Assembly (NCBI GenBank): GCA_003972985.1
Contig: QNZQ01000157.1
Span: 1-36,826 of the forward strand
Direction of reading: 5' to 3'
DNA: 36,826 nucleotides
From: Gammaproteobacteria bacterium
GTDB lineage: Bacteria; Pseudomonadota; Gammaproteobacteria; Chromatiales; Chromatiaceae
Both the position numbers and the translations under genes were made by a program. Shown piece after piece: positions 14,113 through 20,023 of the stretch. The notes under the pieces were generated by a model. It was given only the letters and a program-made list of their open reading frames with translations, ran no database searches and was not told where the DNA came from. The stretch's first letter is position 1. Each line of letters starts with the position of its first letter.

Positions 14113-14739
14113 TCAGCGGATGTAGGGATTGGCCTTTCCCTGGATGCGTTCCACGGCCTGGTTGTGGCGGCGCTCCTCCGCGTCCGGGGGGTACTGGCGG
14201 TTCCATTGCTCCATCAGCCGGCGCTGCCGCTGGTACAGGTCGAGGTCGTATTCGTCGGCCATGTAGAGCATGGCGCGGGCGATGCGGCCCCTTGCCTCGG
14301 GGCGGGGTTCCACCCGGCGGGTGCGGAAATCCACCTCGAAATCACAGCCCTTGCGGTAATGCTTCTCGCCCTTGATCTCGGCAAAGGGCATGGAACCGCG
14401 AGCCTGGTTGATGTCCTTCAGTGCCGGGTAGAGGTTGTGCATGTCCGATTCGATCAGGTTGAAACGGCTGCTGTTGTGCCGGCACTGCTCCCGCTTGCCG
14501 CATCCGAGTTTGCGCGTCACCCAGCTCATGGGATAGACGTGCTCCACGTTGACCCGGCGATCGAAAGGGTGGAACTCGCGGCCGCAGTAGAGGGTCTTGC
14601 CCCCATCGGGGTAGATCTCCTGCCAGAAGGTGCGCAGGCTGTCGAGGTAGTTGCGTCCGGGCGGGCCGGACTTCACGGAGAGCCAGGCCGCCAGCAGGGC
14701 AGGCGCAAGCAGCAGGATGAGTCCCTTTTTCAGTTTCAC
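14113..14739 (-). CDS. Endonuclease I / extracellular deoxyribonuclease family
   Basis: [23 protein letters not shown]..., [28 protein letters not shown]-terminal signal-like helix. Confidence 0.88.
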
Positions 14740-14828: not shown

Positions 14829-15494
14829 ATGGATCACTACGAACATTCTCACTCGGAAGGTAATTCCCGCCTCTGGTTCTCCATCGCCATCGTCGTTGTC
14901 CTGACCGCCGTGGCGATCCTGTTGGTGCCGGATGAAGAGTCGGAGAAGGTGGAGGCGATCCCCCGGCCGGCACAGGTCTCACCCTCGCTGGCCCAACCTG
15001 TAGCCGGGAAAAAGCCGGAGGCTGAAACCGGGAATGTACCGGCGGTAGCGGATGAGCAGGCCCCCGCGGAAGGGGCTGAGACGCCACCGAAAGAGCCCAA
15101 GGGGCCCGAGGGTTCGGCGGCGCGTGCCTTCCTGGCGAGCGCGGAAAATGCCGGAATCGGCCCCGGGGAACTGGTCGCCAAGGCGCGCGAGTTTCAGCAG
15201 CAGGGTCTTGCCGGGGATGCCTGGCTGCTCTATTTCAAGGCGGCCCGGGAGGGTGACGCCAGTGCGGCCATGGCCCTGGCAGAGCAGGCCGATCCCGATT
15301 TCTTCGACCCCGGAAGCAGCGCGCTGAGCGCGCCGGACCCGGTGCAGGCGCACAAGTGGTATCGGGTTGCGGAAAAGGCCGGCAGTGACGAGGCCACGCA
15401 GCGGCTCGAGAAACTCTTTCAGTACCTGCAGCGGGCTGCGGAGAAGGGCGACGAGCGGGCAGGACTGCTGTTGCAGGAATGGAAGGCAAAGTGA
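14829..15494 (+). CDS. Membrane-anchored Sel1/TPR-like repeat protein
   Basis: N-terminal TM helix (WFSIAIVVVLTAVAILLV), Pro/Glu-rich linker, AHKWYRVAEKAGSDEATQRLEKL...AAEKGDERAGLLL Sel1-like repeats. Confidence 0.65.
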   Translation: MDHYEHSHSEGNSRLWFSIAIVVVLTAVAILLVPDEESEKVEAIPRPAQVSPSLAQPVAGKKPEAETGNVPAVADEQAPAEGAETPPKEPKGPEGSAARAFLASAENAGIGPGELVAKAREFQQQGLAGDAWLLYFKAAREGDASAAMALAEQADPDFFDPGSSALSAPDPVQAHKWYRVAEKAGSDEATQRLEKLFQYLQRAAEKGDERAGLLLQEWKAK

Positions 15495-17494
15495 TGATCT
15501 ACAGAAAGCTGTTCGTACTGGCGTCCTTGCTCACACTGCTTGCCGGCGCCATGGCCGCTCCCGACAAGCCGCTGCTCATGGAGGGCAAGCGTTCGCTCTA
15601 CCAGCGGGTGCTGGCGGTGCTCGGTGCCAGCCTGGTGGATCAGCCCGGCGATAGCCAGGCGGCGGTGGCCGTGACGCCCTTCAGCGTCTATTACGTCTAC
15701 GAGCGCAGGCAGCACGATGGACGTGAATGGCTGCTGGTGGGTGGTGATCGCCATGGCGGCGTCAGCGGCTGGCTCCCCACGGAGGATGCCCTGGCCTGGA
15801 ACCAGGGGCTCACGGTGGTCTTCCGTGATCCTGCCGGCCATGACCGGGTGCTGCTGTTCCGTGACGAGGCGTCGCTCAAGTCGTTGATGCAGGAGCAGGA
15901 TCCGGCTGTCTACGAGCGGCTCTATGCAGAGGCGGTCGAGGGTGAACTGCCCGAGGACTCCCCGGTGGTCGCCATCCAGCCTCCCGGACACATCGACATC
16001 CGCAAGGATTTCTACCTGGTGCCCATTCTCGATTACGAGGAAGCCTGGCTGGGCAGCGAGAAGGCACGCCTGCTGGAGATCGCCAGCGTGCCCCTGGCAG
16101 CGGACAAACCACCGGTGCTGACACCGAAAAAGCAAGAAGAGGAGAAAATGCCTGCGCCGCAGCAGGAGTACAGCGCCGGCATCGTCTTCGTCATCGATGC
16201 AAGTCTCTCCATGGACGAGTACATCAGCCGCACCCGCGAGGCGGTGATGAAGATCTACGACCAGCTGGGTGACCGTGGCCAGCTCGGCAAGGTGAGCTTC
16301 GGCCTGGTGGCCTACCGCGACAACACAGGCGCCGTGCCCGGGCTGGATTACGTTGCGCGGACCTATGTCTCGCTGGAGGAAGGGCAGAACCCCGGAGTCT
16401 TCTTGCAGAAGGTCGAATCCCTGAAGGCAGCCCAGGTCAGCAGCAAGGATTTTCGCGAGGACGCCTACGCCGGCCTGCGCGAGGCCATCGAGAACATGGA
16501 CTGGGGAGAGCACGAGGCTCGTTACGTGGTGCTCATCACCGACGCCGGGGCCCGCGAGGGTGACGATCCGCTCTCCAGCACTCACCTGAGTACCGATTCG
16601 GTGCGCCAGCTGGCGCTGGACAACGGTGTCGCCATCTTCGTCCTGCACCTGCTCACCCCTTCGGAGATGGCCGATCACGAAGCGGCTGCCGCGCAGTACC
16701 GCAGGCTGTCGGATTTTCCCGGCATCGGCAGCCTCTACTACGGCGTTCCTACGGGTGACCTGAAGGAGTTCGGCCTGGTGGTGGACAGCCTCTCCCAGCA
16801 GATCACCGACCAGGTGGCGCAGGGTGCCGACACGCAGGAGACGCCAGCGCAGACGGCGACCGGGGAACCGGCAGAGGCGCCACAGCCGCAGGTGCCAGGG
16901 CAACTGGCCGAGCTGCAGGGCAAGGTGGCGAAGCTTGGTTATGCACTGCGCATGCAGTACCTGCAGCGGCGCGAAGGGAAGGTGCCGCGGGTGTTCAACG
17001 CCTGGATGGTGGACCGCGACCTGCGCGATCCCCGGCGCAGAACGGTGGACGTGCGGGTACTGCTCACGCGGGACCAGCTCTCCGACCTGCAGGGGATCCT
17101 CAAGCAGGTGTTGGAGCGGGCCGAGGAGGGGCTGCTCTCGCCGCAGAATTTCCTCGACGAACTCAAGAGCCTCGCGGCTACGGTATCGCGCAATCCCGAG
17201 GCGCTGGGCACCACCACCGCCACCACGGCAGGAGAGGGGAGCAGCCTGGCGGACATGGGGCTCATCGGCGACTACATCGAGGGACTTCCCTACCGGGGCG
17301 AGGTGATGGAACTCTCCCTCGAGGACTGGCAGAACTGGCCGGCGCGCAGGCAGATCGAGTTCCTGCGTGGGCTGGAAGAGAAGATCACCTATTACCAGGC
17401 ACTGCACGACAACACCGATCTCTGGATAAGCCTCGACGGCGGCCCCGTGGATGGCGACTCGGTGTTTCCGCTGGCGCTGGACATGCTTCCCTGA
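15494..17494 (+). CDS. Secreted vWA-domain protein (PpkA C-terminal/SH3-like + vWA)
   Basis: Signal peptide MIYRKLFVLASLLTLLAGAMAA; MIDAS-type IVFVIDASLSMDEYISRTREAV and VVLITDAGAREGDD. Start at 15494 gives a TGATG overlap with the previous gene. Confidence 0.8.
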   Translation: MIYRKLFVLASLLTLLAGAMAAPDKPLLMEGKRSLYQRVLAVLGASLVDQPGDSQAAVAVTPFSVYYVYERRQHDGREWLLVGGDRHGGVSGWLPTEDALAWNQGLTVVFRDPAGHDRVLLFRDEASLKSLMQEQDPAVYERLYAEAVEGELPEDSPVVAIQPPGHIDIRKDFYLVPILDYEEAWLGSEKARLLEIASVPLAADKPPVLTPKKQEEEKMPAPQQEYSAGIVFVIDASLSMDEYISRTREAVMKIYDQLGDRGQLGKVSFGLVAYRDNTGAVPGLDYVARTYVSLEEGQNPGVFLQKVESLKAAQVSSKDFREDAYAGLREAIENMDWGEHEARYVVLITDAGAREGDDPLSSTHLSTDSVRQLALDNGVAIFVLHLLTPSEMADHEAAAAQYRRLSDFPGIGSLYYGVPTGDLKEFGLVVDSLSQQITDQVAQGADTQETPAQTATGEPAEAPQPQVPGQLAELQGKVAKLGYALRMQYLQRREGKVPRVFNAWMVDRDLRDPRRRTVDVRVLLTRDQLSDLQGILKQVLERAEEGLLSPQNFLDELKSLAATVSRNPEALGTTTATTAGEGSSLADMGLIGDYIEGLPYRGEVMELSLEDWQNWPARRQIEFLRGLEEKITYYQALHDNTDLWISLDGGPVDGDSVFPLALDMLP

Positions 17495-18234
17495 TGGCAG
17501 AGCAGGAAGAGAGGAAGCCGATCTACGAACTCAGGGACGTGGTGAAGAAACGCGCCAGCGACAGCTACAGCTTCAGCCTGCGCGTGCCCTCGCTGCGTAT
17601 TTTCCCGGGTGAGAAGATTGCGCTCATCGGCGAGAGCGGCTGCGGCAAGTCCACCCTGCTGGATATGCTCGCCTTCGTGCTCCAGCCCACTTCCTGCGAA
17701 GAGTTCGTGTTCGCCGCCGGTGACGAGCCCGAGGACATCAGCGCGGCCTGGCGGCGCAGTCGGCGCAATCGCCTTGCCCGACTGCGCCGGCACCACCTGG
17801 GCTACGTGATGCAGACCGGTGGCCTGCTGCCCTATCTCACCGTGCGCGAGAACATGAACCTGTCGCGGCGTATTCTCGGCATGAAGAAGGACGACACCGT
17901 GGACGAGCTGGCCGAAGAGCTGGGGCTGTCCCGTCACCTGGGTAAGCTCCCCTCGGAACTCTCCACCGGCGAGCGGCAGCGGGTGGCCATCGGCCGTGCC
18001 CTCGCGCACCGCCCCTCCATCGTCATCGCCGACGAACCCACCGCCTCCGTGGACCCCTTTGCTGCAGAGAAGATCATGGCGCTCTTCATCGAGATGGTGG
18101 AGCAGCGCAACATCACCGTCATCGTGGCCAGCCACGCCTGGCGGCACATCAAGCAGCTGGGGCTGCGCCGGCTGGCGCACCACACCCGCCGTTCCAAGGA
18201 CGGTCACGCCGCTGAAACCGTGGTGAGCGGCTGA
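17494..18234 (+). CDS. ABC transporter ATP-binding protein (MacB/LolD/TagT-like)
   Basis: Walker A IGESGCGKSTLLD, signature LSTGERQRVAIGRALAHRP, Walker B IVIADEPTASVD. Confidence 0.92.
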   Translation: MAEQEERKPIYELRDVVKKRASDSYSFSLRVPSLRIFPGEKIALIGESGCGKSTLLDMLAFVLQPTSCEEFVFAAGDEPEDISAAWRRSRRNRLARLRRHHLGYVMQTGGLLPYLTVRENMNLSRRILGMKKDDTVDELAEELGLSRHLGKLPSELSTGERQRVAIGRALAHRPSIVIADEPTASVDPFAAEKIMALFIEMVEQRNITVIVASHAWRHIKQLGLRRLAHHTRRSKDGHAAETVVSG

Positions 18235-19439
18235 TGGCGCTGCGGCAGAGCCTGGGGCTGGCGACCCGCGACTATTTCCACGAGTGGCAGATCTCGGTCT
18301 GTTTCGTGCTGGCCCTGGCGGCGGTGCTGGGGCCCATGATGGTGCTCTTCGGTCTCAAGTTCGGCATCGTCGGCAGCATGATCGAGGAGTTGCGCGAGGA
18401 TCCGGCGAAGCGGGAGATCCGGCCCGTGGGCAGCGGCCGGTACGACCGCGCGTGGATCGAATCCCTGCGCAAGCGGGACGACGTGATCTTCATCGTGCCG
18501 CGCGTGCGCAGCATCGCCGCCACCCTCGAGGTGCAGAGCGACCGTGCCAACCGCATCCTGCCGCTGGAGGTGATTCCCTCGGCGCAGGGGGATCCGTTGC
18601 TGCCGCCGGGCAGCGCGGCGCCGAAAGGGCTGGGCGAGGTGGTGCTCTCGGCCAGTGCGGCGCGCAAGCTGCAGGTGTCCGTGGGTGACGGCGTGGACGG
18701 CAGTCTCAGCCGCCGCTTCCAGGGGCGCAAGGAGCGCGTGCACCTGCCCCTCACCGTGGTGGGGGTGGCGCCGCCACGCTCCTTCTCCCGCGACGGGCTC
18801 TTCGCCTCCGTGGCGCTGAGTGAGGCGCTGGAGGATTTCCGCGACGGCCGGGCGGTGCCCGCGCTCGAATGGGAGGGCGAGGCCGCCGAAGGGGAGCGGC
18901 ACTACACCGGCTTCCGTCTCTATGCGCGCTCCATCTACGATGTGGCCGGCCTCGAGGAAGGTTTCGAGCGCAGCGGCATCGAGGTGCGTACCAAGGCGGC
19001 CGATATCGAAACGGTGCGACGCATGGACCGCACCCTCTCGGCCATCTACTGGTCCATCGCGGTCATCGGCCTAGCGGGTTTTTCGCTGTCGCTGGGGGCG
19101 AGTCTCTGGGCCAACGTGGACCGCAAGCGCAAGGAGCTGTCGGTGCTGCGGCTGGTGGGATTCCGCACCGGTGACATAGTCTGGTTCCCGGTGGTGCAGA
19201 GTCTCTACACCGCGGTGCTGGGCTGGGCGCTGGCCTGTGCCATCTACCTGGCGGCAGCCTGGAGCATCAACCTGATGCTGGCGCCCCAGCTGGAGGCGGC
19301 ACAGGAGGTATGTCGTCTTCTGCCCAGGCACTACCTCATCGCGCTGGGCCTGACCCTGGGGGCCTCGGTGCTGGCGGCGGTGCTGGCCGGAATCCGCGCG
19401 GCCCGGGTGGAGCCTTCGGAGGGGCTGAGAGAGATATGA
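18234..19439 (+). CDS. FtsX-like ABC transporter permease
   Basis: N-terminal TM, large extracytoplasmic domain, C-terminal block IYWSIAVIGLAGFSLSLGASLWANVDRKRKELSVLRLVGFRTGDIVWFPVVQSL. Confidence 0.85.
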   Translation: MALRQSLGLATRDYFHEWQISVCFVLALAAVLGPMMVLFGLKFGIVGSMIEELREDPAKREIRPVGSGRYDRAWIESLRKRDDVIFIVPRVRSIAATLEVQSDRANRILPLEVIPSAQGDPLLPPGSAAPKGLGEVVLSASAARKLQVSVGDGVDGSLSRRFQGRKERVHLPLTVVGVAPPRSFSRDGLFASVALSEALEDFRDGRAVPALEWEGEAAEGERHYTGFRLYARSIYDVAGLEEGFERSGIEVRTKAADIETVRRMDRTLSAIYWSIAVIGLAGFSLSLGASLWANVDRKRKELSVLRLVGFRTGDIVWFPVVQSLYTAVLGWALACAIYLAAAWSINLMLAPQLEAAQEVCRLLPRHYLIALGLTLGASVLAAVLAGIRAARVEPSEGLREI

Positions 19440-20023
19440 TGAAACTGGCACGGGAAAACCTGCTCTACCTGGTGCTCACCGCCATCGTGGTGGTAGGCGG
19501 CTACCTCTACCTGCGTTACGCCTACCGGGTCATGGACGAGGCGCCCTTCACCCAGGAGATTGTGCTCATCATTCTGGGCACCATCGCCACGGTGCTCATC
19601 ACCGCCATGCTCCTCAACAAGCAGACCGCGGTGGAGCTGAAGAAGGAGCAGAGCATCAAGTTCATCGAGCTCAAGTCCGAGATCTACATGGATTTCATCG
19701 GTTACATGGAGCGGCTCATTCTCGAAAGAGAGGTGACCAAGGAGGATCACGTGCGGCTGCAGTTTCTCACCCACAAGCTGGCCATGGTGGCCAGCCCGGC
19801 AGTGCTGCGCCAGTATCACCAGTTCCTGGAGGTGTTCAACCGCTCCACGCGGGACGAGTCGCTGGACAAGCAGGAGGGGGATGCCATCTCGGTGGCGCTG
19901 GCGCAGCTCACGGTGAAGATCCGCCAGGACCTGGTGGGCGAGCTGGACGAAGAGGGGCTCTACGATATCGCAGCCATCAACCGGCAGGTGATCAGCAATG
20001 CCGAGACCTCGCTCAACGGCTGA
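19436..20023 (+). CDS. Membrane protein of unknown function, two TM helices plus helical cytoplasmic domain
   Basis: MMKLARENLLYLVLTAIVVVGGYLYLRYAY...EIVLIILGTIATVLITAMLLNKQTAVELKKEQ; ATGATGA overlap with permease stop. Confidence 0.7.
   Translation: MMKLARENLLYLVLTAIVVVGGYLYLRYAYRVMDEAPFTQEIVLIILGTIATVLITAMLLNKQTAVELKKEQSIKFIELKSEIYMDFIGYMERLILEREVTKEDHVRLQFLTHKLAMVASPAVLRQYHQFLEVFNRSTRDESLDKQEGDAISVALAQLTVKIRQDLVGELDEEGLYDIAAINRQVISNAETSLNG

Follow-up and report, generated by a model that had tools for sequence, protein, structure and literature searches.

A headless vWA/ABC-transporter operon as a probable T6SS-independent branch of the PpkA-TagST envelope-sensing arm

We describe a four-gene operon, A-B-C-D, that is probably a branch of the PpkA-TagST envelope-sensing arm independent of T6SS, a mechanosensor that would act mostly without a cytoplasmic head of its own. 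The homology of its products to PpkA-type proteins and its standing as a module can be stated with high confidence. Many sulphur oxidisers and marine bacteria related to them carry it, and what it encodes is the sensing half of the known 'retaliation' switch, minus the kinase and the type VI weapon under the control of that switch; this points to a reusable sensor whose output is swapped or absent.

Operon layout and conserved unit

On the + strand of the window, i.e. the whole stretch of DNA that was analysed (36,826 nt, contig QNZQ01000157.1), we confirmed five ORFs (A to E), which are given here together with their main features:

14829..15494, + strand: gene A, 221 aa, single-TM protein with C-terminal Sel1-like domain
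14871..14927, + strand: TM helix of A, residues 15-33 (hydropathy survey of homologues)
15111..15485, + strand: conserved Sel1-like C-terminal region of A, residues 95-219 (alignment of homologues)
15494..17494, + strand: gene B, 666 aa, secreted vWA protein
16196..16210, + strand: MIDAS motif DASLS of B, residues 235-239 (homologue alignment)
16541-16543, + strand: invariant D350 of B (homologue alignment)
17494..18234, + strand: gene C, 246 aa ABC ATPase, TagT homologue
17629..17652, + strand: Walker A of C, GESGCGKS (invariant alignment columns)
17959-17973, + strand: signature LSTGE of C (invariant alignment columns)
18234..19439, + strand: gene D, 401 aa FtsX/MacB-type permease with periplasmic domain, TagS homologue
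19436..20023, + strand: gene E, 195 aa two-TM protein, lineage-specific neighbour

The overlapping junctions claimed in the initial annotation (TGATG three times, then ATGATGA at D/E) were all seen; for B we prefer the start at 15494, where TGATG includes the stop of A, to the listed ORF start at 15479. The same annotation had proposed a five-gene operon. All five ORFs are present, but the conserved unit comprises the four genes A-B-C-D, because E is confined to close relatives. E has no family match in Pfam, and its homologues occur in only 7 of the best 80 of at least 548 loci, all of them in Sedimenticola or Thiolapillus; it is missing even from L060, among the closest loci, where rsmG directly follows D. 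A five-gene operon was thus rejected. In three Sedimenticola loci (L061, L062 and L134) a gene for an alpha/beta-hydrolase-like protein of ~470 aa lies between D and E; it was considered as a possible TagR and discarded on account of this likeness. Divergent from A, an HNH-type endonuclease-like gene (named from its sequence) occupies 14113-14739 on the - strand, and homologues of it adjoin the operon in L032 and L033, both in the family of the window.

Within the class, B was present in 22 of 274 genomes, and 19 of these carriers are stand-alone. Among the named genomes scanned, at least 548 loci encode a relative of B, the best 80 of which formed our neighbourhood set; they derive from Sedimenticola, Thiolapillus, Thiodiazotropha, Chromatiales, an Olavius symbiont and others. 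For each of A, C and D, a homologue adjoins B in the same orientation in 70 of these best 80 loci, and most of the exceptions reflect contig ends, ORF-calling gaps or three methanotroph fusions. A survey for co-occurrence of all five genes had been suggested initially; it revealed wide linkage of A, B, C and D and none of this kind for E. The genes around the operon vary by clade (their names were mostly read from sequence and not from a family search): in one clade its neighbours are leuS and an lptE-like gene at one end and a holA-like gene at the other end, and in Sedimenticola coq7 is found nearby and rsmG after the operon. Since linkage is kept amid these different flanks, and since pairwise dN/dS is 0.02-0.38 across all four genes (ten pairs), A-B-C-D is a maintained module under purifying selection.

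Kinship with PpkA-TagST

The initial annotation had likened the operon to a PpkA-TagST-like arm without T6SS, and our comparisons bear this out, as B, C and D match the PpkA-type half, TagT and TagS over their full length. Over 646 residues, B shares 34% identity with part (residues 378-992) of a PpkA-type Pkinase-TM protein whose locus contains TssM, C is 44% identical over 234 residues to TagT and D 45% identical over 395 residues to TagS of the PpkA-type locus, the comparison sequences being from six genomes of one family and not from P. aeruginosa. With the profiles of the stand-alone family, PpkA-type proteins score 631 to 616 bits (B), 289 to 275 bits (C) and 439 to 406 bits (D). The likeness is further backed by the order B-C-D, which is the same in the T6SS locus of Tistrella.

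A search of the class with the B profile yielded no kinase-fused relatives. Using a broader profile on the phylum, we found open frames of 1017-1189 aa that end in B in six genomes of one family. The protein of one such locus, L168 (992 aa), consists of Pkinase (8-249) and the B region (364-992), and beside it lie C, D and genes for an FGE-domain protein (TagR-like), a glycine-zipper protein (TagQ-like) and IcmF/TssM; in L169 a PP2C gene is located upstream. This gene set is the one published for P. aeruginosa (PMC6657622), and the tagQRST-ppkA-tssM order of these loci also agrees with the published one. Glycine-zipper lipoproteins of the TagQ type are common.

In the unrooted tree of B, a single branch (SH-aLRT 100) unites the 25 stand-alone rows with the 3 AAA-fused ones, the other groups being a seven-row Srf group, PpkA and a deep third branch. 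The tree of D, likewise unrooted, recovers these groups, the stand-alone branch being weakly supported in it (93/49). In the third deep branch of B-C-D (L050, L143 and L175), the permease is enlarged by an insert of ~200 residues.

Full-length homologues of B were found in 125 plasmid records, and a search with a D homologue also returned 125 records with identical organism counts; Klebsiella accounts for 114 of the 125 records with B. On the plasmid loci L140, L141 and L145, A-B-C-D stands beside srfB-srfC. On pTs485 of Candidatus Thiodictyon syntrophicum (L144, L146), B and C are together, and D and SUMF1 are found 270 kb off, near vgrG/PAAR.

The vWA protein, ABC ATPase and permease

Pfam confirms a vWA domain in B (1.5e-8). 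The MIDAS motif noticed initially was recovered as DASLS: D235, S239 and also D350 show no change across 46 sequences, S or T occupies position 237, and the mean column identity of B in the same set is 54%. The SH3-like part that had been assigned to B was not upheld; it has no family match, and the model (pLDDT 77.2, pTM 0.52) gives a beta-rich N-terminal part only. Structure comparison matched the vWA part alone to integrin and von Willebrand A domains and assigned no fold to the N- and C-terminal parts of the model, and a sequence search found no solved relatives of B. The C-terminal domain of B is conserved with PpkA.

For C and D, Pfam found ABC_tran (8.5e-29) and FtsX (5.5e-13), in agreement with the ABC ATPase and FtsX-like permease proposed earlier. 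Across 17 homologues, C shows no variation at its Walker A, signature, Walker B and H-loop residues. The model of D (pLDDT 86.5) resembles LolC/E, MacB, YtrF and FtsX, with YbbP also listed; LolC/E chains are its best structural neighbours (E 2e-16), and a sequence search of solved structures gave weak MacB/LolC matches. An FtsX-type permease fold with a periplasmic domain and a separate ATPase fits the type VII ABC superfamily, a class in which ATP powers mechanical change.

The initial annotation had named assignment to LolCDE or FtsEX, with no vWA conservation in neighbours, as one outcome that would speak against it. NCBIfam places both proteins far under its cut-offs: C reaches 132 of the required 308 bits for LolD, its best match, and 129 of 265 for FtsE, and D only 22 of 362 for LolC/E. 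A separate lolC/E is found elsewhere in the window's genome (506 bits), and orthology to LolCDE or FtsEX was rejected on these grounds. A defence system was also dismissed, PADLOC having matched only C, as a general ATPase.

A headless Sel1-like protein and the apparently exchangeable heads of its relatives

A consists of a short N-terminal tail, one TM helix, a proline/alanine-rich linker and a C-terminal Sel1-like domain. In the window, 14 residues precede the TM helix. As regards the Sel1-like anchored protein described initially, the TM helix and the Sel1-like character hold; the Sel1 match of A itself lies below the Pfam threshold (E 0.015), and the protein at the same position in L147 passes the cut-off (1.4e-11). 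A had appeared to be an incidental member of the operon, which is not the case, as it corresponds, without the head, to the TM/Sel1 part of a kinase. In the kinase of the Tistrella T6SS locus, Pkinase (50-297) is accompanied by a TM stretch and, at the C-terminal end, by a region hit by the A profile (378-467, 46 bits), and the conserved Sel1-like region of A is matched in this kinase as well as in Srf-type proteins.

The part ahead of the TM helix differs between systems. In 66 of 67 measurable stand-alone loci, 112 residues at most fit before the TM helix of A (median 38), which is too short for a kinase domain. The lone exception, L109 (6191-7954), encodes an AAA_22-TM-Sel1 form of A with a separate B. 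In the methanotroph loci L108, L118 and L137, sister to L109 in the trees, AAA_22-TM is fused directly to B, A has been lost and C-D are divergent; A of L109 is intermediate to these fusions. In srfB-srfC loci on plasmids of Klebsiella, Lelliottia and Gluconobacter, an A-like gene precedes B and encodes ~160 residues before the TM helix; the Gluconobacter protein is annotated as a Sel1 repeat protein. With a kinase, a ~160-residue, an AAA_22 or no head on its relatives, A looks like an adaptor with an exchangeable cytoplasmic head, which is missing in the window.

T6SS, SrfB, kinase and TagR genes in operon carriers

The assembly of the window's genome, 92% complete and split into 232 contigs, yielded neither TssC nor TssB. 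The suggested check of the genome for a T6SS therefore returned no sheath gene, and 17 of the 19 stand-alone carriers are likewise without one. TssB is present in 3 of the 22 carriers of B; the comparison of 2 of 19 stand-alone carriers with 45 of 229 genomes in the class indicates no association of the operon with T6SS. In G203 (C19:30263-35217) two TssB matches with identical scores lie 4.5 kb apart, a duplication or an assembly effect. SrfB was found neither in the window's genome nor in the 19 stand-alone carriers; among carriers it is restricted to G013, G136 and G162, all of the Srf-type group.

The proposal that the system occurs without a kinase holds for the operon, but not for the genome, which has two Pkinase genes elsewhere, outside the contig. 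No kinase motif occurs in the best 80 of at least 548 loci. All 19 stand-alone carriers have at least one Pkinase gene, their number varying from 1 to 28.

A search with three FGE query proteins revealed no TagR-like FGE genes in the best 80 of at least 548 loci; the matches obtained there are to A, picked up via the Sel1-like tail of the L052 protein, and were discarded. L052 itself, in genome G093, has an FGE gene and lies outside this FGE-searched set of 80. Its protein (L052:7521-9137) joins a TagR-like FGE part to an A-like Sel1 domain at the C-terminus; the operon beside it is otherwise of the stand-alone kind, and G093 is without TssB and SrfB. A TagR-like FGE is essential in P. aeruginosa (PMC6657622), so its absence from the 80 loci means that the stimulus pathway may differ from that of P. 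aeruginosa.

Proposed mechanism and alternative explanations

In P. aeruginosa, the TagQRST-PpkA pathway responds to mechanical indentation and outer-membrane damage (PMC11881912), and TagR targets the C-terminal domain of PpkA (PMC3224232). TssK assembly persists at a lower incidence in P. aeruginosa tagS and tagT mutants (PMC6657622), which makes the ABC part modulatory in that organism. Given the homology to PpkA-TagST, the stand-alone core should read the envelope state via B and A, coupled to C-D, and by this analogy we slightly favour envelope sensing as the task of the operon. We infer a physical complex and a direction of signalling as follows. C and D would form a type VII (MacB/LolCDE/FtsEX-like) ABC complex that, by analogy, might turn ATP into mechanical change and not into bulk transport. 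B would be the periplasmic vWA sensor that is fused to a kinase in PpkA, and A a single-TM periplasmic Sel1-like adaptor, carrying an exchangeable head in other systems and none in the window. Envelope damage or strain, the presumed stimulus, would be read in the periplasm by B and A, with C-D linking it to ATP turnover. The output might be a periplasmic action of the complex or pass through a cytoplasmic partner encoded separately; that it is periplasmic, as opposed to a kinase acting in trans, is a tentative reading towards which we do not quite lean.

Signalling through a kinase or another cytoplasmic protein encoded elsewhere, so that the system is headless in the operon only, seems unlikely to us. 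The two Pkinase genes off this contig and the presence of at least one in all 19 stand-alone carriers would allow it, and recruitment of a partner by the short tail of A is conceivable; nevertheless, a kinase motif is found in none of the 80 operon neighbourhoods (best 80 of at least 548), and with Pkinase gene numbers ranging from 1 to 28 a dedicated partner is not apparent. We regard as similarly improbable that C-D is a lipoprotein-release or lipid-extraction transporter (LolCDE/YbbAP-like) with A and B as its periplasmic acceptors. This would suit the LolC/E chains at the top of the structural neighbours of D (E 2e-16), with MacB and YbbP listed too, LolD as the best NCBIfam match of C (132 bits), and YbbAP-TesA, which exemplifies a type VII system able to extract hydrophobic compounds (PMC12646458). 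However, C attains only 132 of 308 bits for LolD and D 22 of 362 for LolC/E, the true lolC/E lies elsewhere in the window's genome (506 bits), and the nearest full-length homologues of C and D are TagT and TagS (44-45%).

An efflux or export pump formed by C-D and B, the latter as a MacA-like adaptor, could be read from the likeness of the D model to MacB; it is very improbable, as the ATPase and permease are unfused, unlike in MacB, neither MacA nor TolC genes recur in the surroundings of the operon, and B is a vWA protein whose terminal domain is conserved with PpkA. Finally, the operon might be a decaying, functionless remnant of a lost T6SS or SrfABC locus, given that the other deep branches, unresolved ones excepted, are tied to T6SS or SrfABC and that kinase, TagR and SrfB are missing from stand-alone operons. 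The dN/dS values of 0.02-0.38 in all four genes (ten pairs), the 54% mean column identity of B (46 sequences) with invariant Walker and MIDAS residues, the at least 548 loci with a relative of B in named genomes and the four-gene linkage maintained at different genomic places leave this explanation with hardly any probability. A T6SS-independent sensing arm is our preferred reading of the operon.

Implications of a T6SS-free branch

TagQRST-PpkA has been studied as a T6SS regulator, and TagQRST was called restricted to Pseudomonas in one paper (PMC6082577). Given a large T6SS-free branch, the sensing arm becomes open to study without the weapon, and what it senses would thereby be told apart from what it triggers. 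A T6SS-free tagQRST/ppkA set beside srfABC is known in host-associated Deltaproteobacteria (PMC3608642); the absence of T6SS as such is therefore not new. In the literature searched, largely that outside subscription journals, neither the stand-alone branch nor a headless A nor AAA_22 heads were described, which is weak evidence for the novelty of the branch. The swapping of heads gives a testable rule, by which the periplasmic core would report the envelope state and the head would set the response. In its widest form, PpkA-TagST might be one case of a general envelope-damage sensor with an A-B-C-D core and a swappable head (a kinase, a domain linked to SrfABC or an AAA_22 ATPase) that may also be missing, as in sulphur oxidisers and their relatives, where the core would act T6SS-free within the envelope; we see the prospects of this generalisation as nearly balanced, with doubt slightly ahead.

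Comparison with known systems

LolCDE, MacB and FtsEX resemble the window's proteins in the fold of D and the ATPase class of C, but C and D lie far below the cut-offs of these families and their partners differ. With PpkA-TagQRST of the P. aeruginosa H1-T6SS type, the operon has in common the vWA half, TagT, TagS and the order B-C-D; it is without kinase, phosphatase, TagR-like FGE and T6SS, and it has a separate Sel1-like A, for which PpkA-type proteins gave no profile match. The T6SS locus on pTM1 of Tistrella mobilis (tssH, tagH, tssJ, tssK, icmH, tssM, tagF, PP2C, kinase, B, C, D, SUMF1, vgrG) likewise keeps B, C and D as separate genes in the order seen here, and its kinase has an A-like C-terminal domain; unlike the window, it possesses the kinase head, PP2C, a SUMF1 gene and complete T6SS neighbours. 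In the SrfABC-associated module, found in host-associated Deltaproteobacteria (PMC3608642) and on plasmids of Klebsiella, Lelliottia, Enterobacter and Gluconobacter, A-like, B, C and D follow each other in the same order with no T6SS genes in the stretch shown, whereas srfB-srfC lie ahead, the A-like protein bears a head of ~160 residues, and SUMF1/FGE usually comes after. The AAA_22-TM-vWA fusion of Methylomonas/Methylococcaceae is nested in the stand-alone branch and has C and D adjacent, but differs from the window in that the head is fused to B, A is lost and C-D are divergent.
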